A stretch of DNA of 64,000 nt from Tsukamurella pulmonis (GTDB lineage: Bacteria; Actinomycetota; Actinomycetes; Mycobacteriales; Mycobacteriaceae), in assembly GCF_900103175.1 (NCBI RefSeq), contig NZ_FNLF01000002.1, forward strand, positions 2,680,136 through 2,744,135, given 5' to 3'. Of this stretch, positions 491-8,702 are shown piece by piece. Both the position numbers and the translations under genes were made by a program. Under the pieces are notes generated by a model. That model did no database searches. It saw only the letters and a program-made list of their open reading frames with translations, and was not told where the DNA came from. Positions within the stretch are counted from its first letter, which is position 1. Each line of letters begins with the position of its first letter.

Positions 491-1981
491 TCAGCCGATC
501 CGACGGCTGAAGTACGCCTTCCTGGCGTCTCGGTCGCCGGGCACGCCGAGGATCAGTCCCGCGGTCTTCGCGCCGAGCAGGTCGAACGCGATCACGGCGG
601 CGGCCAAGCTGTCCGGTTGGTGCTGCCCGCGCTGCCACCGGAGTGCCTGTTCTTCGAACTTCGGGAGATGACCGGCGACCCGGCACGTGCCCGTCTCCAG
701 GCCTTGCAGCATCGCGCCGCTGCGCGCCAGCGCGTCGCCCATCGCACCGCGGCCCTTCTCGGGCCACATCGTGACCCGGATGTGGTGCGTATCAGGGTGC
801 GCCCGACGGTGCCGTTCGACGGCTTCCGCCAGGATGCGCTCGTAGGTCGCGCGGGCGGTGAACGCCTCGACCGCGATCTCGGACGCGCCGACCTCGATGG
901 CCAGCTCCAGTGCGGTGCGAGCCCATGCGTCGCTGGTCATCGGTGCGCTGCGGTCGGCGATCAGCGCCACGACGCCGTCGGCTGTCGTGCTCGCCGCCAC
1001 GATGCCCGCCGAGTCGCCGCGGCCGCTGTCGGATGGGTCGACGGCGACGATCGCGCGGACGGGATTCGCGGGAGCCGTGGCCATGCGCCAGTCGTCCAGC
1101 CACGAGCGCTGCACCAGGCCGCCCTCGGGCGAGCTGGGCTCGCCCTCATACAGTGACCACCACGCGCGCTCGCCTGCAGTACGCCGCGCGCTGGCGAAGT
1201 GCTCGGCGGTGAATCCCAGAGCGGAGGTCATGGCCTGGCCGGGCTCGCGGCCGAGTGCGTCGGGCACTCCGACCTCGGACACGGCGGGCACGTTCGTACG
1301 TGTCCACAGCTCGGGCTCGTCGGCCAGCAGCGAGCCGATCAGGTCGGCTTCATGCCACCTGGTGCCGACCAGCAAGATGCTCCCGCCGGGGTACACGCGG
1401 GTCGAGTAGGTCGAACGGAACTCGTTCAGCACCCGCTTGCGGTGCGCGGCGGAATCAGCCTCGGCGGCGTCTTTGATCGGGTCGTCGATGATCAGTACAT
1501 GTGCACCGAATCCGGTCGCGCCGGACTGGATGCCGCCAGCGAGTAGTCCACCGCGCCGCCCCTCGATCCGCCATCGGCCGACGCTCGACTTGTCGCTGGC
1601 GATCGAGATGCCCAGCTCCGCGCCGTGCTCCTGGATCAAGGCGCGCACCTCGCGACTGTGGGACTGTGCCAACTCGTCGCTGTAGCTGGTTAGCAGCACC
1701 TCGCGGTCAGGGTCCGAGTGCAGCGCCCAGACCACCGTCCAGACCGAGAGCAACCGCGACTTGCCAGCGCGGGGTGGTGTGCTCACGATGTCGCGGCGAT
1801 CCTCCTCGCGGATGGATCGAACGGCGAGGTCTGACAGCAGGGCGGTGGCGGGCACGATCCGATAGCTGGGATCGAGGCGGCGTGCGAGCTGCGCCGGACC
1901 CGGCGCGGGCACACGGCGGCGCGCGGTGCGCAGCGCGCGGGCGGCGATCAACGTCCGCGTCGGGTCTTTGCGATCGCTCAT
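491..1981 (-). CDS. terL: Phage terminase large subunit
   Basis: DNA-packaging motor ATPase and nuclease, 496 aa. The ATPase domain has a Walker A-like TPPRAGKS (residues 68-75) and a Walker B-like LIIDD (163-167), followed by the coupling-type segment LLVGTRWHEADL. The nuclease half shows VAVDPSD (about 312-318), a VEAF acidic position (about 371-374) and a late FDLL acidic position, as in RNase H-fold terminase nucleases. The frame is open for 77 more codons upstream, but the ATG at 1981 overlaps the preceding stop by 4 bp (ATGA) and begins the alignable sequence, so it is preferred. It is the last gene of a coupled five-gene set. A full packaging ATPase argues for an element that can package DNA itself or derives from a phage. 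Confidence 0.9.
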   Translation of the reverse strand: MSDRKDPTRTLIAARALRTARRRVPAPGPAQLARRLDPSYRIVPATALLSDLAVRSIREEDRRDIVSTPPRAGKSRLLSVWTVVWALHSDPDREVLLTSYSDELAQSHSREVRALIQEHGAELGISIASDKSSVGRWRIEGRRGGLLAGGIQSGATGFGAHVLIIDDPIKDAAEADSAAHRKRVLNEFRSTYSTRVYPGGSILLVGTRWHEADLIGSLLADEPELWTRTNVPAVSEVGVPDALGREPGQAMTSALGFTAEHFASARRTAGERAWWSLYEGEPSSPEGGLVQRSWLDDWRMATAPANPVRAIVAVDPSDSGRGDSAGIVAASTTADGVVALIADRSAPMTSDAWARTALELAIEVGASEIAVEAFTARATYERILAEAVERHRRAHPDTHHIRVTMWPEKGRGAMGDALARSGAMLQGLETGTCRVAGHLPKFEEQALRWQRGQHQPDSLAAAVIAFDLLGAKTAGLILGVPGDRDARKAYFSRRIG

Positions 1982-2169
1982 GACTGGGCCTCGATCCGGG
2001 TCAAGGTGGAGTACACCTGATCTCTGATCAAGTGGTTCGGGGTAGTTCGCATGCGGCAAATGCAGCTGTTGACCAGGGGTGATGATGCCCCGTTCGCCCG
2101 ACCGGAGAGCGATCGGCCAAGCCGGTGGGCCAGCAGTGGGCCAATGACCCCCGGAATCGAGGCGATCAC
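1978..2169 (-). CDS. Small hypothetical protein of the packaging operon
   Basis: 63 aa, not recognised. It begins with GTG and overlaps the upstream gene by 4 bp (GTGA), and its own stop overlaps the terminase ATG by 4 bp (ATGA). That double coupling is the main support that it is translated. The sequence starts MIASIPGVIGPLLAHRLGRS, which could form an amphipathic helix, and has two cysteines in NSCICRM. Function unknown. Its place directly before the large terminase is where phages keep small head or packaging accessory proteins. Confidence 0.6.
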   Translation of the reverse strand: MIASIPGVIGPLLAHRLGRSLSGRANGASSPLVNSCICRMRTTPNHLIRDQVYSTLTRIEAQS

Positions 2170-2483
2170 GGCGCGTCACCGAACAGCACGTCGTCGCCGA
2201 ACCCGCGATCACGCGCCAGCTCAGTGCGCCGCCGCTCGGGTGTGCCGGAGCCGACCGGCCGGGCCAACGAGTTGGGCAACGCGCCGACGACTCCGCTCCG
2301 AGCGCGCATCACCTCGTCGGCCGAGACCCGGACCCGGCGCTGGCTCCCGAAGTCGTGTGGCCCTCGGACGTGCGGAGGTACTTCGTGCTGAGGCTGTGCG
2401 CCGCGGTCCGGGGTCAGATCTACCTCGGCGGGCTCAGGGGTGGGTCGCGCGGTTCGGGCGCGCAGACGGGCGAGCAGGCTCAT
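2166..2483 (-). CDS. Hypothetical protein of the packaging operon
   Basis: 105 aa, not recognised. It starts MSLLARLRARTARPTPEP, is Arg/Pro-rich at the N-terminus and acidic at the end (FGDDVLFGDAP). The reading frame is open for 75 more codons upstream, but that part is an Arg-rich shadow of the preceding gene. The ATG at 2483 overlaps that gene's stop by 4 bp (ATGA), so it is chosen. Its stop overlaps the next gene by GTGA. It is probably a basic structural or packaging accessory protein; this is inferred only from position. Confidence 0.6.
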   Translation of the reverse strand: MSLLARLRARTARPTPEPAEVDLTPDRGAQPQHEVPPHVRGPHDFGSQRRVRVSADEVMRARSGVVGALPNSLARPVGSGTPERRRTELARDRGFGDDVLFGDAP

Positions 2484-2941
2484 TCGGTCACTCCTCGGAG
2501 GTGGGGGCGCGCGGCACGCCACGCGTCGATGACAGCCTGCGCCGCCGCCTCGGCGTCGGCCAGCACGGACTCGGGGAGGTCGGCCAGCTCGTCGTCGGGC
2601 TCGGACTCGGGCTCGACGACGCCGAGCAGCGCGACCGGCTCGGGTGCCGGAGTCGCATCCTCGGGCAACTCGCCGCCGTTCTCGGCCCGAAGGCGCACGC
2701 TCAGCCACTCGCGCAGCTCATCGGAGGTCAGCCCGCCGACCGCGAGGAACTGACGCGTCACGTCGCAATGCAGCTCAAACAGCGGGTCGCCGGGCTCGCC
2801 GACGGTGCCAAACTCGGCGCGCATCATCTCGGTCAGCTCGGACTCCAGCGTCGCGGCGCTTAGGGTTCCGTCGGTGATCGCGGCCTGCACATCGAAGGCT
2901 GAGTTCACGACATCTGCGTCGGTCATGTTTGGCGTACTCAC
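2480..2941 (-). CDS. Acidic hypothetical protein of the packaging operon
   Basis: 153 aa, strongly acidic, not recognised. The N-terminal 75 residues look globular and helical (FDVQAAITDGTLSAATLE; MMRAEFGTVGEPGDPLF). The second half is a Glu/Asp/Pro-rich linker ending in a helix. The GTG at 2941 overlaps the upstream stop by 4 bp (GTGA); an ATG five codons in is an alternative. It lies between the HTH TerS-like gene and the unknown basic protein, so it may be a partner of the terminase complex or a head protein; this is inference from position. Confidence 0.65.
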   Translation of the reverse strand: MSTPNMTDADVVNSAFDVQAAITDGTLSAATLESELTEMMRAEFGTVGEPGDPLFELHCDVTRQFLAVGGLTSDELREWLSVRLRAENGGELPEDATPAPEPVALLGVVEPESEPDDELADLPESVLADAEAAAQAVIDAWRAARPHLRGVTE

Positions 2942-3435
2942 TCGACCACCTCGGCGTCGATCGGTTCGGGTTCGACGGAGGACACCGCCGGGGTTGTTGC
3001 ACGGCGCGCTTCGAGCGCGGCAAGGGCGGCGTCACGCGCTGTGGCGATCGCCTCGACGGGCGACCGTCCGATCGTCACGTCGACCTTCTCCGAGGCGTAC
3101 AGGCCGAAGATCTTCGATGTCTCGGCATCGGCTGCGGTGATCGTCTTCGACAGCGCTGCGACCGCGGCACTGTCGCCGTCGGTCTCGGCGACGGCGAGCT
3201 GGCGGAGAAGACGCTGGAGGGTCACCCGCCGCCGCTCCAGAATGTCCGCCAGCGTGTCCTCGCGCGAAGGTGGAGGGTTGCGCTTGCGGTGGCTGGCGAC
3301 GGCCTGCTGAGCAGCACCCACGGACTTGAACCCGAGCGCCCCTGCGATCTCGCGCCAGGAGTACCCGTGCACGCGCAGGGTGTGCGCTTCCTCGGCTCTC
3401 TCGCGGCTCAGGGCCAGCGGCATCACGTGGGGCAT
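2938..3435 (-). CDS. HTH protein, candidate small terminase subunit
   Basis: 165 aa. Residues about 18-50 form a helix-turn-helix (HTLRVHGYSWREIAGALGF, then a second helix AAQQAVASHR), followed by a long helical stretch with LERRRVTLQRLLRQL and an acidic C-terminus. DNA-binding HTH plus an oligomerising helix is the plan of phage small terminases, and it heads the operon that ends with the large terminase. A frame extends 79 codons further upstream but runs into the iteron array; the ATG at 3435 is the first sensible start. It could instead be a transcriptional regulator of the packaging genes or an iteron-binding protein, since it starts just outside the iteron array. Confidence 0.65.
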   Translation of the reverse strand: MPHVMPLALSRERAEEAHTLRVHGYSWREIAGALGFKSVGAAQQAVASHRKRNPPPSREDTLADILERRRVTLQRLLRQLAVAETDGDSAAVAALSKTITAADAETSKIFGLYASEKVDVTIGRSPVEAIATARDAALAALEARRATTPAVSSVEPEPIDAEVVE

Positions 3436-3628
3436 ACCCGATAAGTACCTGACAACCGTGCAGCCCTCGGCGCGCTCGCGCTCGGCTTGTCCGCAGCGCC
3501 ACACCAGAACGCCACACCAGAACACGGCACGGGGTGCTGAGCTAACGAGAGGGGGTGCCGAGGTGCCGAACCCGCGCCCCAGACGACGGCCCCACCACCG
3601 TCTACGCAGCTCAGCAGCATTTTCCAGC

Positions 3629-3913
3629 GGTGGCCGAGGGGTGGCCAGGGTGGCCAAGGGGTGGCCAAGCAAAACCGCAGGTCAGACAGGGGTGGCCGGG
3701 GTGGCCAGGGGTGGCCGGGGTCGCGCGCTCTCTCTACGCATCAGGGGATTGAAAAAGTAGTTAGTTCTTGTAATAAGTAAGAGGTATGCGAGGGTACTAC
3801 GCGCGGTCGTATTTCCGCGAGCGCGTGGCCACCCCGGCCACCCCTGGCCACCCCTCGCTGACCTGCGGAAACGCTGGCCACCCCTGGCGGCCACCCCTGG
3901 ATTTCTGGCCACC
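3629..3913. repeat. Inverted iteron array around an AT-rich core, candidate replication origin
   Basis: Seven direct copies of GGTGGCC start at 3629, 3640, 3649, 3660, 3691, 3700 and 3710. Six copies in the opposite orientation (GGCCACC) start at 3827, 3836, 3846, 3876, 3889 and 3907. Most are 9-11 bp apart, about one helical turn. A second pair, CCGCAGGTCAG (3675-3685) and CTGACCTGCGG (3858-3868), is also inverted about the same centre. The middle (3746-3790) is by far the most AT-rich stretch of the element (GATTGAAAAAGTAGTTAG). The array lies at the 3' end of the primase/helicase-like gene. Iterons on both sides of an AT-rich melting region next to the replication gene is how SaPI/PICI origins are built. 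No gene is seen here. Confidence 0.7.
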
Positions 3914-3927
3914 CCTCCCGAGCAGGG

Positions 3928-5439
3928 TCACGACTGCCGCAACCGGTAGTAGGTAACGCTCTGACCAGTGGCGTTGGTGTCGCGGCGGAGTTCGATCCGC
4001 TTAGAAGTCTGGAGGGCGAGCTGTGCCTCCTCGAAATGCTGGCGCAGCCGTGAGGACACGGCCTTGCGCACCTCCGACGAGGCGACCCATCCGCCGCGCT
4101 TGCGGAGGAACGATTCGATTCGGTCTGCGGTCGCCGCGATCGCGGCGGCGTCGCGCACAGTGTCCGCGGCTGCGCGGCGGTGTCCATCGAGTTCGCCTTG
4201 CCGTTCGGCGTCCCGCTGCGCTGCGATGCCCGACTCGGCGGCGACGGCTCGACTGGTAGCCGCGGACACGTCAAGAATCGCGGCGGCGAGTTGCCAGTAC
4301 ATCGGTTCTATCGCGGTCCGCCCGTGGAGCACTGCCAGCGCGGCGGCGACCTTCTCCTGGGTGAGGAGCCGATGGCCTGCGAGCGGGTCTCCGCTGCGGC
4401 CGAACGGGTCGAGATCCTTCGCCGCGTCGGCGGCGATGATCTCGGCGGTGATCGACGGGTGCAGGTCGAGCGGGATCAGCTCACGGGCCTCGGGGTTGAA
4501 CGCCAGGTCGTCGTCCGCCCCTTCGGGCACCGAGAACGGGTCGCTGCCAAAGTCCGGCAACTCGATCTCCATCGGCTCCAACGGCTTGTCCGGCGCGGCC
4601 TGGAGCTTGCGTGCCTCGCCCTGCCGTGTCGGTGCCCAGACGAACCGCTGCGGCACACCGTCGCGCTGCGCCTGGTCATTGAGCAGCGCCACGCCGTTGT
4701 CGAACTGAACGCCCGCGGACATGCAGAGGCGGTAGCTATGCATCGGAAGAATCACCCGGCGCTCGGCGTCAGCGTTGGCGAACCCCAACTCCTCGCCCAT
4801 CGCCGCCTTCAGCAGCTCGGGCAGCAGCGTCGAGCCCGACCGGCCAGCGAGCGCGACCAGATGGGCGATGTCCCGGACCCCGAATAGCGCCGCGGTCTTG
4901 TGCCAGCGCATCACAGTCGCGCCACCGCCAAGCGGGGCCTTCCGCGCGGTCGCGAACGTCCGGTTGATCCCCTCGCCGGACCCGAGCGGGACGACCGAGG
5001 GCGTGGGCATGCGAGCACCCTCGCGCGTGAAACGAATCGCCGCCGCAGCGGTCTTGTCGGCGGCCCCCTTGCCGCCGCTGGAGACCCCCACGAGCGCGGT
5101 CAGGAGGTTCAGCGACACCTCGCCGCCGATGATCGGCGGCAACACGACATACGGCGGCACCGCGAGGGTCGTGCGCTGAAGCACGCCGAGCAGCGTCGCC
5201 CAGTGCCCGGCTCGTCGCGCGTCAGCGAACGAGCGGACATGCGCGAGCGTCGGGCTCGCGTCGAACACGTCGGCGCGCTCCTGCATCACCTGGCGAAGGG
5301 CCTCCGTCGCGGCGGCGGCTTCGGTAGCCCCGGTGCGCGCAGCGCCGATCGACTCAGCCGCGTCACCCGCGACATGGCGATACGCCGCCTGCTCGTCTCC
5401 CGCATCGCCGCTGGTCGAGGTATTCTCGGCTTGGGACAT
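3928..5439 (-). CDS. Primase/helicase-like replication protein (DUF3987-type)
   Basis: 503 aa. The central region resembles AAA-type ATPases of phage and plasmid primase-helicase proteins: after a hydrophobic strand comes GVSSGGKGAADKT (118-130), a degenerate Walker A loop in which GKGA replaces GKS/T. Conserved-looking blocks follow (LVALAGRSGSTLLPELL; RRVILPMHSYRLCMSAGVQ). The C-terminal 60 residues form a winged helix (FLRKRGGWVASSEVRKAV) of the type used to bind origin repeats. A good RBS (AGGGAG) precedes the ATG. The iteron array lies just past its stop. Likely role: initiator or helicase for replication of the excised element. Whether the altered P-loop hydrolyses ATP is open. Confidence 0.65.
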   Translation of the reverse strand: MSQAENTSTSGDAGDEQAAYRHVAGDAAESIGAARTGATEAAAATEALRQVMQERADVFDASPTLAHVRSFADARRAGHWATLLGVLQRTTLAVPPYVVLPPIIGGEVSLNLLTALVGVSSGGKGAADKTAAAAIRFTREGARMPTPSVVPLGSGEGINRTFATARKAPLGGGATVMRWHKTAALFGVRDIAHLVALAGRSGSTLLPELLKAAMGEELGFANADAERRVILPMHSYRLCMSAGVQFDNGVALLNDQAQRDGVPQRFVWAPTRQGEARKLQAAPDKPLEPMEIELPDFGSDPFSVPEGADDDLAFNPEARELIPLDLHPSITAEIIAADAAKDLDPFGRSGDPLAGHRLLTQEKVAAALAVLHGRTAIEPMYWQLAAAILDVSAATSRAVAAESGIAAQRDAERQGELDGHRRAAADTVRDAAAIAATADRIESFLRKRGGWVASSEVRKAVSSRLRQHFEEAQLALQTSKRIELRRDTNATGQSVTYYRLRQS

Positions 5440-5469
5440 TGGTCGTGCTCCCTATCTGTGGTTTGGATG

Positions 5470-5499
5470 ACGCCCCCGCGAACCGTGACGCGGGGGCGT
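5470..5499. terminator. GC-rich hairpin upstream of the primase-like gene
   Basis: ACGCCCCCGCG (5470-5480) and CGCGGGGGCGT (5489-5499) form an 11-bp perfect stem with an 8-nt loop. There is no U-run, as is common for actinobacterial terminators. It lies between the ART-like gene and the primase-like gene, so it could end the early transcript or act as an attenuator. Confidence 0.45.
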
Positions 5500-5565
5500 T
5501 GTCGTGTCTGGTGGTCGCCCGGTGGAAGCGAAATACCTATGAGGGTGGTGCTTTTGATGGGCACG

Positions 5566-5615
5566 CCTCAGCGGCGGTGACCCGGTGCGTAACCGGACGA
5601 TCACCGCCGCTGAGG
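5566..5615. repeat. Perfect 15-bp inverted repeat with nested hairpin
   Basis: CCTCAGCGGCGGTGA (5566-5580) is an exact inverted copy of 5601-5615. Inside it, CCGGT (5582-5586) pairs with ACCGG (5592-5596). No gene covers it. It lies 37 bp past the stop of the ART-like gene, so it may be that gene's terminator, an operator, or an origin- or packaging-related structure. Confidence 0.5.
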
Positions 5616-5652
5616 GTGTGTTGGGGGCTGGAGAAGGCCCCCGGCCAGAGGG

Positions 5653-6213
5653 TCAGTGGCTCAGGCATACGTCGGAGAGCCCGGCGGGGTCCACCACGTA
5701 CTCCGACTCTCCCCGCCCGACCTCGGGGCCGATGTAGGCCAACAGGTGCTTCGGATCGACTGTGGCCGTGTACACAGCGCCTGCCGGTTGGCCCCTGAGC
5801 CCGTCGAATGCGAACGCCCTCGCGATCTCGCAGTCGGTCGTCCAGGACATCCCGTAGCGGCCGTCCTCCGTGCATCCCCGGTAGAGCTGAATGGGCTCCG
5901 TCGGCAGCGGAGCGCGACTGCCGTCGTGGGTGTAGCCGTTCCGCTTGAACATCCTCACCCACATGCTCGGCGGATCGTATGTGCGCTCCGGATATTCCGC
6001 ACCGCACCACGCACTGGCCGCGATCCCCGCCATGTCCGGGGCTCTGAGATCGACGACCCCGCCGAAGTGAAAGTCGAACAGCAGGGCCGGACCGTTGTTG
6101 CGTCCCACCCAAATCAGGCAGAGATCGAAGTCGGCACGGCTGCACCGGGAGGTGCCGCCCCACCGGTAGCCGAGGTCGTCCTCGTAGAGGCCGAGTTCCA
6201 TCGCCGTCGTCAT
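5653..6213 (-). CDS. ADP-ribosyltransferase-like protein (R-S-E type), putative effector
   Basis: 186 aa, no close family recognised. The C-terminal half shows the three spaced motifs of the arginine-type (R-S-E) ADP-ribosyltransferase fold: LYRG with Arg112; SWTTD at 123-127, followed by helix CEIARAFAF; then strand AVYTATVDP and ESEYVVDP with the pair Glu169-x-Glu171. The N-terminal 100 residues are aromatic-rich (YRWGG, CLIWVGRNN) and could be a substrate or partner domain. No signal peptide. The gene starts 4 bp after the excisionase-like stop, so it is co-transcribed with element control genes. It could modify a host or competing-phage target, or be a toxin. The function is inference from motifs only. 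Confidence 0.5.
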   Translation of the reverse strand: MTTAMELGLYEDDLGYRWGGTSRCSRADFDLCLIWVGRNNGPALLFDFHFGGVVDLRAPDMAGIAASAWCGAEYPERTYDPPSMWVRMFKRNGYTHDGSRAPLPTEPIQLYRGCTEDGRYGMSWTTDCEIARAFAFDGLRGQPAGAVYTATVDPKHLLAYIGPEVGRGESEYVVDPAGLSDVCLSH

Positions 6214-6217
6214 GGCG

Positions 6218-6436
6218 CTATGCCTCTACGCCGAGCATTGCCCTGAGCGCCGCGGTCGGGACCAGGCGACGCCCACCGAGCGCGATGCTCGGCAACTCGC
6301 CGCGGTCTGCGAGCGAGTACGCGTTGGCCCTAGAAATGCCGAGGATCTCGCCAGCGCGAGGGATGGAGATTGCTGCGCGAGAGCGCAATTCGTCGATGTC
6401 GGAGGTCGTGGATGGGTTGGTCTGTGTGGTGGTCAT
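6218..6436 (-). CDS. xis: Excisionase-family small HTH protein
   Basis: 72 aa. The core AISIPRAGEILGISRANAYSLADRGELPSI is a winged-helix HTH of the excisionase/MerR-like family: the first helix is followed by the recognition helix RANAYSLADRG, then the wing (ALGGRRLVP) that supplies the conserved basic turn. It is probably the directionality factor for the integrase encoded divergently, and may also repress the shared promoter region. The ATG at 6436 is chosen over an upstream ATG at 6472 because a -10-like GATATT ends exactly 6 nt before it, suggesting a leaderless mRNA. Confidence 0.8.
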   Translation of the reverse strand: MTTTQTNPSTTSDIDELRSRAAISIPRAGEILGISRANAYSLADRGELPSIALGGRRLVPTAALRAMLGVEA

Positions 6437-6442
6437 GAATCC

Positions 6443-6471
6443 AATATCGCCGATCAGCGTGACAAAGTCCA
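6443..6471 (-). promoter_or_regulatory. Candidate promoter for the excisionase-like gene
   Basis: Minus-strand -35 TGGACT (6471-6466), 17-nt spacer, -10 GATATT (6448-6443). The expected start point falls on the A of the ATG at 6436. It overlaps the divergent plus-strand promoter, so one protein could control both. Confidence 0.4.
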
Positions 6472-6488
6472 TGTCATTCGCTTATCAT
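6459..6488 (+). promoter_or_regulatory. Strong sigma-A-type promoter for the integrase-side genes
   Basis: -35 GTGACA (6459-6464), 18-nt spacer, -10 TATCAT (6483-6488); each hexamer has one mismatch to consensus. Transcription would start at 6495, the first base of the GTG start codon, giving a leaderless mRNA. Confidence 0.6.
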
Positions 6489-6494
6489 TTTGTC

Positions 6495-7070
6495 GTGGAC
6501 ATTGATAACCCCTACGACGACACCCCGATCCCGGGTGACGTGATGGCTGCCGACATCCGCCGCGTCTCGGGCGAGAAGGGCAGCGCGGACGGCTTGATCG
6601 AGATCCCGCTGTTCGGTCACGCGCACCGCTACCAGGTGCGTGTCGATCTCTCCGGCCCAGCGCCGCGCCTGGTCGAGCTGCGGATGATCGCCGACTCGCC
6701 CGAGCAGGAGATCACGCCCGCCGCACTGCGCGGGGTTCCTGCGCGGCGACTGACGAAGGCGGCGGCGCGGTTCATCACTCAGGGTGAACACGGAATTGCC
6801 ACGCCCGATCAGCTTGAAGACGCGACGGTCGTCGACCGGCCGGACCTCGACCCGATCAGTCGCCGTAACAGTGTCGGCCGCCGCAATCTCGATGACGCGC
6901 ACTACCGCCAGGTCGCGCGGCTGATGGTCACGGCCCGCGAGATGGGCGAGATTCCACGCGAGCACGTCGCGCAGCAGCTCGGCGGGGTGCCACTTCCGAC
7001 CCTGGACCGATGGGTGCGCGAGGCCAAGAAGCGCGGCTTCCTCGCGCGCGACTGGGCGACCCGATCCTGA
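6495..7070 (+). CDS. Hypothetical protein with C-terminal HTH-like region, upstream of integrase
   Basis: 191 aa, not recognised by name. It begins MDIDNPYDDTPIPGDVMAAD (GTG start). The first part looks like a small beta-rich domain (IEIPLFGHAHRYQVRVDL). The last third (VARLMVTAREMGEIPREHVAQ, then GVPLPTLDRWVREAKKRGFL) is a HTH of the kind seen in phage DNA-binding proteins that read one wing per repeat. It lies 36 bp before the integrase in the same direction and is probably co-transcribed. The GTG at 6495 is preferred to the ATG at 6471 because the promoter places the mRNA start exactly there. Confidence 0.7.
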   Translation: MDIDNPYDDTPIPGDVMAADIRRVSGEKGSADGLIEIPLFGHAHRYQVRVDLSGPAPRLVELRMIADSPEQEITPAALRGVPARRLTKAAARFITQGEHGIATPDQLEDATVVDRPDLDPISRRNSVGRRNLDDAHYRQVARLMVTAREMGEIPREHVAQQLGGVPLPTLDRWVREAKKRGFLARDWATRS

Positions 7071-7106
7071 CCACCTGACACGCCACCACGACAGGACACA
7101 CACGAC

Positions 7107-8504
7107 ATGCCCGAGAACACCACCACCGAGCCCACCAAGCGCACCCGCCGCGCCGAGCCGATCACGAAGCGCACCGCGAAGAACGGCACGGTCAGTTACG
7201 AGTTCCGCCTGGATGTAGGCCTGCGCCCCGACGGCACCCGAGATCGTCAGCGGTTCACCTTCCCCACCAAGAAGCTGGCCGTGATCGAGTTCCGCAGGAT
7301 CAGCGCCGAGGTCGCGGCCGGACGGTTCAGCCGCCAGACGACGCTCACGGTGAACGAAGCGATCGACCAGTGGCTCGCCGGGCGGCGCGGAGTGCGCGCC
7401 GTGACGTTGCGCGGGTACGCCGACTCGCTGAAGGCGGCGCAGCGGTACCTCGGGACCAAGAAGCTCGCGGCACTCACCAAGGCCGACGGCGACGCGCTGG
7501 TCACCTGGATGCTCACTGAAGGCCGCACCTCGCCGCGCCACTACCGCGCCGATTCGTTCGCGGGCCGCGTCACCGCGCTGGTCTCCGAGCATCCCGAGGG
7601 CATCACCCTGACTGAGATCAAGGCGGCGTTCCCTGGGGAGGACGCGAGCACCACGCTTGCCGGTCTGGTCCGTTCCGGCCGCGTGACCCGGCCGTCGCGC
7701 GGTGTCTACGCACCCGCACCCGCCGCACAGCAACAGGTCGGCGGGCTGAAGCCGGTGAGCGTCCGGGCGACTCTGAAGGCGCTGACTTCGGTGGCGCAGA
7801 GCTACGTCGACCAGGGCGCGCTCCCCCGCAACGTCATCGCCCTGGTCGAGCGCCCGCGCGACGAGTACGACGATCACGCCGCCGCCGACACCGACTCACG
7901 TACGCACATCGCCTGGTCCCCCGCCGAGGTCGAGGTCTTCCGCGCCTCCGTCGCCGCCGACCGGCTCTACCCGTTGTGGTTGCTCTCGATGTACGGACTG
8001 CGCCGCAGCGAGATCATGGGCATGAGGTGGGATGCGATCGACCTGGACGAGGGCACGCTGTCGGTCGTGCGCGGCCGGGTCGCGGTCGGTGCGGAGGTGA
8101 TCGAGGGCCGTACCAAGTCGCCGAAGCGATCGGATCGGACCCTGCCGCTGCCGGACGAACTGACCGAGGCGCTGCGGGCCTTCAGGACCGTCCGCAAGCG
8201 CGAGGCGCTGGCGCTCGGCGTCCCGTGGGATGAGCGCGGCCTGCTGGCGGTGCGAGAGGACGGCGAGCCCATCGCGCCGGATTGGTTCAGCCGCGAGTTT
8301 GACCGGCTGCGGGCCGCGACCGGCCAGCGGCGAATCACCCTGAAGGGCCTGCGCGCCTCGTCCGAGTCCGCGATGCTCGCGCGCGACGTCCCGCTGCACG
8401 TATCCGCGGCCTGGCACGGTCACTCCGAGGCGGTGGCGTTGGCGCACTACGCGCGCGCCCAGGAGGACGATCTGCGCCGCGCATCCACCGTGCTGTTCGG
8501 GTAG
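7107..8504 (+). CDS. int: Tyrosine-recombinase integrase with an inserted winged helix
   Basis: 465 aa. The N-terminal arm-binding domain has GTVSYEFRLDVGLRPDG and FPTKKLAVIEF. A core-binding helical domain starts near residue 80 (LTVNEAIDQWLAGR). The catalytic domain has MYGLRRSE (Arg about 299), K/L-rich ITLKGLRASS (second Arg about 416), AWHGHS (His about 437-439) and HYA with the nucleophile Tyr448. Residues about 148-205 are unusual for the family: a winged helix (LVSEHPEGITLTEIKAAF, TLAGLVRSGRVTRPSRGVY) resembling AbiEi/DNA-repressor wings, apparently inserted in the core-binding domain. The gene points at tRNA-Pro, whose 3' end is the likely attachment site. Confidence 0.92.
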   Translation: MPENTTTEPTKRTRRAEPITKRTAKNGTVSYEFRLDVGLRPDGTRDRQRFTFPTKKLAVIEFRRISAEVAAGRFSRQTTLTVNEAIDQWLAGRRGVRAVTLRGYADSLKAAQRYLGTKKLAALTKADGDALVTWMLTEGRTSPRHYRADSFAGRVTALVSEHPEGITLTEIKAAFPGEDASTTLAGLVRSGRVTRPSRGVYAPAPAAQQQVGGLKPVSVRATLKALTSVAQSYVDQGALPRNVIALVERPRDEYDDHAAADTDSRTHIAWSPAEVEVFRASVAADRLYPLWLLSMYGLRRSEIMGMRWDAIDLDEGTLSVVRGRVAVGAEVIEGRTKSPKRSDRTLPLPDELTEALRAFRTVRKREALALGVPWDERGLLAVREDGEPIAPDWFSREFDRLRAATGQRRITLKGLRASSESAMLARDVPLHVSAAWHGHSEAVALAHYARAQEDDLRRASTVLFG

Positions 8505-8625: not shown

Positions 8626-8628
8626 CTG

Positions 8629-8665
8629 TCGGGCTGACAGGATTTGAACCTGCGACCACCTGACC
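8629..8665. other. Probable attachment-site core in the 3' half of tRNA-Pro
   Basis: The integrase reads towards the 3' half of a complete tRNA-Pro, with only a terminator between them. Tyrosine integrases commonly use tRNA 3' ends as attB. The second copy of the core, at the far end of the element, must lie left of the window start, so the exact core cannot be defined here. Confidence 0.5.
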
Positions 8666-8702
8666 CCCAGTCAGGTGCGCTACCAAGCTGCGCCACAGCC
8701 CG
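8629..8702 (-). tRNA. tRNA-Pro (anticodon GGG)
   Basis: 74 nt. The acceptor stem is CGGGCTG/CAGCCCG with discriminator A. The D-arm has GCAGCTTGGTAGC, the anticodon stem-loop CTGACTGGGGGTCAG has GGG at 34-36, and the T-loop has GGTTCAAATCC. CCA is not encoded. A TAATCT -10-like box lies 5' of it at 8732-8727. Confidence 0.95.

Follow-up and report, generated by a model that had tools for sequence, protein, structure and literature searches.

An inverted iteron array beside a DUF3987-like rep gene as the probable replication origin of a phage satellite in Tsukamurella pulmonis

The array and the element that carries it

The 64,000-nucleotide stretch of Tsukamurella pulmonis DNA analysed here (contig NZ_FNLF01000002.1, positions 2,680,136 to 2,744,135; hereafter the window) contains part of a 13.7 kb element integrated at a tRNA-Pro gene. 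The element carries a rep gene, and 15 bp from the rep stop codon lies an array of 13 exact copies of GGTGGCC within 285 bp (3629-3913; Table 1). Seven copies are on the plus strand (3629, 3640, 3649, 3660, 3691, 3700 and 3710) and six on the minus strand (3827, 3836, 3846, 3876, 3889 and 3907). Spacings are 9-13 bp, except for one of 31 and one of 30 bp in the middle of the two halves and a single one of 18 bp. An initial annotation of this sequence had described seven and six facing copies around the most AT-rich stretch of the element, with a second inverted pair inside them, and all three features are present: the matches are exact, the AT maximum of the element over 40 bp (75% AT) falls between the two halves, and the second pair reads CCGCAGGTCAG on the plus strand in its first copy. 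The dyad centres agree, at 3771.0 for the array, 3771.5 for the second-box pair and 3771.5 for the inner iteron sets.

It is extremely improbable that this is a chance or low-complexity G-rich repeat with no function. G+C content is high in this region, and the window as a whole is rich in GGTGGCC, with 42 copies observed against 19.8 expected and 29 of the 42 outside the array, but the densest 285 bp of 300 simulated elements (order-2 Markov) held at most three copies. The mirror symmetry is exact, and the array recurs beside rep in relatives when set against control tiles, as described below. The host genome has 19 close pairs of GGTGGCC, compared with six for the reversed control pattern; eight of the 19 are in the array and 11 are scattered, and no second cluster was seen in this close-pair search of the host genome. 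The single-stranded fold of the array region has a z score of -12, which simply restates the inverted repeats.

Table 1. Features of the element inside the window, with positions counted from the first nucleotide of the window.
Feature	Position	Strand	Remarks
terL, terminase large subunit	491..2212	-	phrog_38, E 2e-78
153-amino-acid protein	2480..2941	-	phrog_27872; partly similar to Dori gp84
Helix-turn-helix (HTH) protein	2938..3435	-	phrog_645, phrog_686; partial-length match (37%) to Mycobacterium phage Dori gp83
Rep-distal iteron half, seven GGTGGCC	3629..3716	+	outer set 3629-3666, inner set 3691-3716
Second box CTGACCTGCGG (CCGCAGGTCAG on +)	3675..3685	-	between outer and inner iteron sets
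Degenerate 14th iteron GGGGTCGC	3717..3724	+	one mismatch to GGGGTGGC
AT-richest 40 bp	3748..3787	.	spans the dyad centre; presumably where melting occurs
Rep-proximal iteron half, six reversed GGTGGCC	3827..3913	-	inner set 3827-3852, outer set 3876-3913
Second box CTGACCTGCGG, mirror copy	3858..3868	+	
rep, DUF3987-like helicase/initiator, 503 amino acids	3928..5439	-	winged-helix-like C-terminal region, about residues 431-503
186-amino-acid protein, function unassigned	5653..6213	-	phrog_4776
Excisionase/AlpA-like HTH_17 protein	6218..6472	-	HTH_17 above the Pfam cut-off, AlpA itself below
Open reading frame (ORF) 6285-7070 between xis and int, in the int direction	6459..7070 (scanned piece)	+	no family match
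Tyrosine integrase (int)	7107..8504	+	
Attachment (att) core, 43 bp	8628..8670	.	in the 3' part of tRNA-Pro(ggg), 8628-8702

From the right att site, the gene order of the element is a tyrosine integrase gene, an unmatched ORF, an excisionase/AlpA-like (xis-like) gene, the gene for a 186-amino-acid protein, rep and the array. To the left of the array come an HTH gene, the gene for a 153-amino-acid protein, terL, small ORFs and the gene for a 257-amino-acid protein, and the left end is made up of a gene for a weakly M50-peptidase-like protein, an XRE-ImmA/DUF4411 pair and a further unmatched ORF. The second att copy lies 13,743 bp away, left of the window (L009:10021-10063). The unmatched ORF next to the integrase gene has the position and direction of the repressor gene of phage-inducible chromosomal islands (PICIs). 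TerL is 61-63% identical to its counterparts in Dori-like mycobacteriophages and prophages, and the two genes that separate the array from terL show partial-length matches to Dori-like phages; the HTH protein is a candidate terminase small subunit (TerS), a label given by position only. The 257-amino-acid protein (L009:13289-14062, phrog_779), encoded in the same element left of the window, matches a protein of Tsukamurella phage TPA2 at 70%, and the TPA2 homologue is encoded among structural genes of that phage. It also matches Gordonia phage proteins at 53-56%, which are mostly annotated 'major capsid pentamer protein' among the matches listed (8 of 501).

The whole genome gave no match to phrog_10 (major capsid) or to phrog_9 (terminase), and no portal, major capsid or tail gene was found among the element ORFs scanned. 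Because the element combines att repeats at the distance given above, an integrase, an xis-like gene, terL and a pentamer homologue with the absence of a genome-wide phrog_10 match, it is probably a phage satellite. Its gene set would be that of a satellite needing a helper, for which a TPA2-like phage is a candidate. A pentamer-protein homologue is also encoded near rep in a related locus (L052); a satellite that supplied capsid vertices alone would be an unusual means of redirecting helper capsids. The XRE-ImmA protein (L009:10718-12408; PADLOC RmrA models, E 1.6e-17) and its DUF4411 partner at the left end of the element are possible defence or toxin-antitoxin cargo.

Rep relatives and the layout beside them

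The window Rep aligns to the C-terminal half (529-989 of 994) of phrog_28894, a phage primase-polymerase family, and no primase domain was found in Rep or among the element ORFs scanned. The initial annotation had called this gene primase/helicase-like, of which the helicase part, DUF3987-like, can be retained and the primase part cannot. Taken alone, the window Rep matches DUF3987 (PF13148) at E 0.0055, below the Pfam cut-off, and 35 of 38 aligned Reps match PF13148 at E 0.01 or better, with a best value of 3e-10. The profile of the aligned Rep C-terminus matches RPA32 winged-helix domains (E 0.001). DUF3987 has been predicted to be a helicase of mobile elements, and the winged helix of DUF3987-type proteins has been suggested to recognise origins (PMC5862659).

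The rep family is present in 8 of 16 genomes of the genus and in 75 of 401 genomes of the family (both counts include the window's own genome), as well as in 65 phage records. With the Rep alignment as query, 97 IMG/VR stretches were found, of which 80 were kept; the window Rep alone as query gave no match in viral contigs or genome contigs. A phylum-wide search found rep relatives in 8 of 396 genomes, three of the eight being outside the window's family. For 40 family matches, up to 20 kb of surrounding sequence was analysed. Att-like repeats at a neighbouring tRNA flank rep, 6.6-15.3 kb apart, in 24 of 46 loci (the window, the 40 family loci and five phage records), although one of the 24 has a repeat of 14 bp only (L072) and two are near-copies (L056 and L057). 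No tRNA was found in the analysed stretches of L051 and L052. Of the 75 positives, 28 genomes were searched for a major-capsid match, and in eight of them one lies no more than 6 kb 3' of a rep (G004, G365, G389, G107, G127, G183, G371 and, at its second rep, G237).

A role of the array in partition or incompatibility, as in a plasmid-like element, is very improbable. Repeat arrays of such size act as centromeres in some plasmids, but this element is integrated at tRNA-Pro, no ParA or ParB match was found among 17 scanned ORFs in and beside it, and the rep family occurs in only 2 of 72,556 plasmid records, as weak matches.

Recurrence of the array was scored at 125 loci, in the 420 bp that follow the rep stop, by the best 8-mer repeated on either strand with up to one mismatch. 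The loci comprise the window, the 40 family loci, the five phage records and 79 of the 80 viral loci (L112 was too short). A score above 25 was reached by 79 of these loci, compared with 9 of 504 control tiles of the same loci; the corresponding numbers are 63 and 0 for scores above 35, and 87 and 26 for scores above 20. After dereplication (n=98), 62 loci score above 25, 46 above 35 and 70 above 20. By source, scores above 25 were obtained for 57 of 79 IMG/VR loci, four of five phage records, 17 of 40 family genomes and the window itself. In the 79 positives, the median distance from the rep stop to the first site is 12 nt, the median of the widest inter-site gap is 103 bp, and the AT content of the core exceeds that of its locus in 77. 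Most positives consist of two facing iteron sets around an AT-rich core. The commonest orientation pattern, ++-|+--, accounts for 17 of the 79 beside many other patterns; in the window and in its nearest relatives the plan is enlarged.

The four closest relatives found (L050-L053) all carry the array and keep its plan, with different letters: the iteron is GGGGTGAC in L050, TGTGGCAC in L051, GGGTGGCA in L052, where the array is 5' of rep, and TGTGGCGG in L053. The layout is conserved and the GGTGGCC motif is not, so that the motif does not itself mark the class. Retention of the array in relatives that keep rep, on which the first description had staked its reading, holds for these four and is not universal directly after the rep stop, as the counts by locus, by non-redundant locus and by family genome show. 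Nine named phage records were picked from the 65 (five of them are also among the 125 loci), and eight have the plan, the exception being Firecracker. The satellite-type origin that had been proposed is thus supported, by the satellite-sized element with its att repeats, the array directly 3' of rep, the AT-rich core and the same plan beside related reps, and at the same time it is not restricted to satellites.

The position of the array relative to coding sequence varies among these loci. In L068 and L085 (strong arrays) and in L064 and L089 (weak arrays), it lies within the 3' end of the rep frame, past the conserved domain. In the Gordonia phages Jojo24 (L090 7191-7831), TinyDot and Hibiscus (L335, L336) it underlies small annotated ORFs directly after rep, which may not be genes.

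Covariation with Rep and the second box

The sequence argues strongly for reading the array as the replication origin of a phage satellite, built on the PICI plan and presumably bound by the C-terminal domain of the satellite's own DUF3987-type Rep. In the 62 non-redundant positives, the iteron and the C-terminal region of Rep appear to change together to a modest degree: iteron distance is correlated with C-terminal distance when the helicase part is allowed for (partial correlation 0.24, Mantel p 0.001). Among 42 windows along Rep, the top partial correlations start at residues 431, 441 and 451 (0.28, 0.24 and 0.23, respectively), compared with at most 0.17 elsewhere, and the best-tracking region is residues 431-485.

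Particular residues can also be related to iteron letters. GGACA iterons make up 20 of the 62, and the two strongest of 803 column-residue tests fall on the neighbours R464 and L465 (window numbering). Arg at R464 is found in 19 loci with GGACA and 16 without, with other residues in 1 and 26 (p ~2e-5), and Asp at L465 in 17 with and 11 without, with other residues in 3 and 31 (p ~2e-5); both p values are post hoc, because the link was first seen by eye in the aligned table. Most GGACA readers carry Asp at a position where the window Rep carries Leu, and the GGAC of their iterons corresponds to GGCC in the window iteron. Among the 27 nearest pairs with a difference at R464, agreement outnumbers disagreement by 16 to 1. 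GGCC iterons are most associated with S462, inside the C-terminal region, and GGGGTAC iterons are associated equally with L110 and S462.

These results also bear on an alternative in which the array is an operator, through which a repressor or activator of the element silences the rep or terminase transcript. The array does sit in the gap between rep and the next genes in the same direction, and iteron origins often control their own genes too. However, it lies 3' of rep, its letters follow the C-terminal region of Rep best, and phages and satellites repeatedly show the same combination of AT-rich core and facing clusters. The only promoter-like site found in 2800-7200, by a consensus scan for one promoter type, is at 6459-6488 and not in the array. 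We therefore consider an operator function improbable.

A number of observations weigh against an origin read by the Rep C-terminus, in addition to the post hoc nature of the GGACA link. Scores of 25 or less in the 420 bp after the stop were obtained for 46 of the 125 rep loci, and for 23 of the 40 family-genome loci, which are the setting nearest to the window. A wider scan of the 46 low loci found strong arrays elsewhere in L052, L068 and L085, and weaker candidates elsewhere in L063, L064, L089 and some more, but weak scores are expected by chance because dozens of overlapping tiles were scanned per locus, and 28 of the 46 have no listed score above 28. Iteron distance is correlated with helicase-part distance, the C-terminus being allowed for, at 0.23, nearly equal to the 0.24 obtained for the C-terminus itself. 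GTAC iterons (9 of 62) are most associated with A369, M214 and G78, and CGGA iterons with H327, all outside the C-terminal region, to which only the GGACA and GGCC labels point first. On the helicase-part tree the traits change at least 15 to 17 times, and tree-independent pairs agree in direction (4.8 same and 0.1 opposite, of 9), but this underpowered test falls short of significance (median p 0.06 to 0.13).

The second box (TGACCTGC) stays while the iterons change. Recognisable copies lie between the outer and inner iteron sets of L050, L051 and L052 despite their different iterons, one of each pair being exact in L050 and L051 and the others having one or two changes; in L053 the box is absent between the iteron sets, and one exact copy lies outside the array. 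The 10-mer TGACCTGCGG occurs exactly in 7 of 62 origins, compared with 0.02 expected from shuffles, and GCAGGTCA in 13 of 62, where 1000 draws of equal same-locus segments gave 0.91 on average and never more than 5. When the three loci near which the box was first noticed (the window, L050 and L051) are left out, GCAGGTCA is found in 10 of 59 origins, and in nine of these ten it lies in the largest inter-iteron gap. A factor other than the iteron-reading domain probably uses this box.

The constancy of the inner box would also suit a packaging site (cos or pac) for the neighbouring TerS candidate, formed by the box or by the whole array, and the next gene is indeed an HTH gene weakly similar to a gene of the terminase-related phage. 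Against this, the arrays of Jojo24, BetterKatz and prophiGD17-1 adjoin rep with no terminase gene as the next neighbour, and many positive relatives have no match to the terL of this element near rep. A packaging site is, in our view, even less probable than an operator.

More widely, the box CTGACCTGCGG with an AT-rich tail is present in at least 120 viral contigs (IMG/VR loci L184-L303), as pairs in several GC-rich contigs, and in many low-GC contigs near one contig end, beside promoter-like sequence. An exact box search of 121 family genomes gave 38 matches, compared with none for the reversed pattern. The contexts of the box are mixed, and include phage and plasmid gaps, hairpins downstream of tRNA genes, a ribosomal-protein promoter and coding sequence; no functional conclusion is therefore drawn from these wider matches. 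The idea that the box is a piece of a tRNA was rejected, as no tRNA was found in the 14 box-bearing viral loci tested. A literature search with the letters of the box returned no relevant paper.

A replication model and its relation to known systems

In the mechanism that we propose for the origin, the winged-helix-like C-terminal domain of Rep would bind the GGTGGCC iterons. From the two clusters of facing iterons, a pair of oppositely oriented Rep helicase rings would be loaded across the AT-rich core. The core would melt, leading to bidirectional replication of the excised circle. Because Rep is without the primase part of its phage relatives, priming would be supplied by the host or the helper phage. 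On induction by a helper, the 13.7 kb circle would then be packaged into helper capsids by the terminase module of the satellite, and these capsids may include the pentamer protein that the satellite encodes.

A wider proposal, which we offer tentatively and consider rather doubtful, is that many phages and satellites share an initiation module. This would consist of a winged-helix DUF3987 Rep and a minimal unit of three iterons, a central TGACCTGC box and three further iterons, with a changeable iteron code read partly by R464 and L465. The box would be constant because it is used by something besides the iteron-reading domain, such as a host protein or a priming step, and the window origin would be two mirror-image units around a melting core. 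If true, the mirror-image double unit may place the satellite in a compatibility group of its own next to a helper whose origin is of the same type. An origin is predicted wherever the layout occurs, named Gordonia, Tsukamurella and Mycobacterium phage records among these loci. The literature searched, which did not extend to subscription papers and supplements, gave no description of an origin either in these satellites or in phages carrying this rep family.

Capsid-forming PICIs have their own terL, portal, protease and major capsid genes. The family-genome locus L051 resembles them, with terL, portal, head protease and major capsid genes standing consecutively beside the same rep type and array, and another such locus, L089, has the same rep type with its own terL and major capsid gene; both are candidate capsid-forming satellites. 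The window element differs in having, among the ORFs scanned, terL and the pentamer homologue only. The term capsid-forming PICI also occurs in PMC10690885.

Candidate PICIs have been described in Mycobacterium as small integrated elements, some at tRNA genes and some with helicases and virion genes, defined by integration machinery and a major capsid gene (PMC10654092). The window element, unlike these, is without a major capsid gene; no description of an element origin was found in that paper, the main text of which uses the word 'iteron' 0 times. The phage-inducible chromosomal minimalist islands (PICMIs) of Vibrionaceae share with the window element DUF3987 (PF13148), which is included in their primase model, an AlpA-type regulator and an integrase (PMC10803314). 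They differ in their hosts and in a model that needs a fis gene, and 'iteron' again occurs 0 times in the main text (PMC10803314). The plasmid pRN1 likewise has a putative origin directly 3' of a replication gene, which encodes prim-pol, helicase and winged-helix parts, but this origin is a 100-nt stem-loop and not an iteron array, and the helicase is of the SF3 type (PMC4234260). Extrachromosomal mycobacterial prophages also provide actinobacterial phage origins, some of which need a phage protein, RepA-like; these differ in serving the prophage state, and the word 'primase' occurs 0 times in the main text (PMC7157519).

The closest likeness that had been drawn was to the origins of PICIs, including the Staphylococcus aureus pathogenicity islands (SaPIs), and this comparison holds. 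Those origins have an AT-rich region flanked by two iteron sets, immediately 3' of the initiator gene (PMC6092414), and SaPI iterons are recognised by the C-terminal domain of Rep, the SaPI Reps being of DUF927 or Primase_Cterm/D5 types (PMC7581432). The window origin shares with them the iteron sets, the AT-rich core and the position 3' of rep. It differs in its iteron letters, its constant inner box and its DUF3987-like initiator, a family that the accessible text of these two sources does not report for PICIs (PMC6092414; PMC7581432). The element also has the specific att site, the satellite size and the integrase with an excision/AlpA-type gene that are expected of a PICI. A primase homologue (pri), which in PICIs stands alone or is joined to rep, was not found among the ORFs scanned, and from its sequence the element may be called PICI-like in its origin and not in its primase. 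The comparison suggests that the plan of PICI origins extends beyond PICIs and beyond the initiator families reported for them, and that it is therefore older than PICIs or has arisen more than once.
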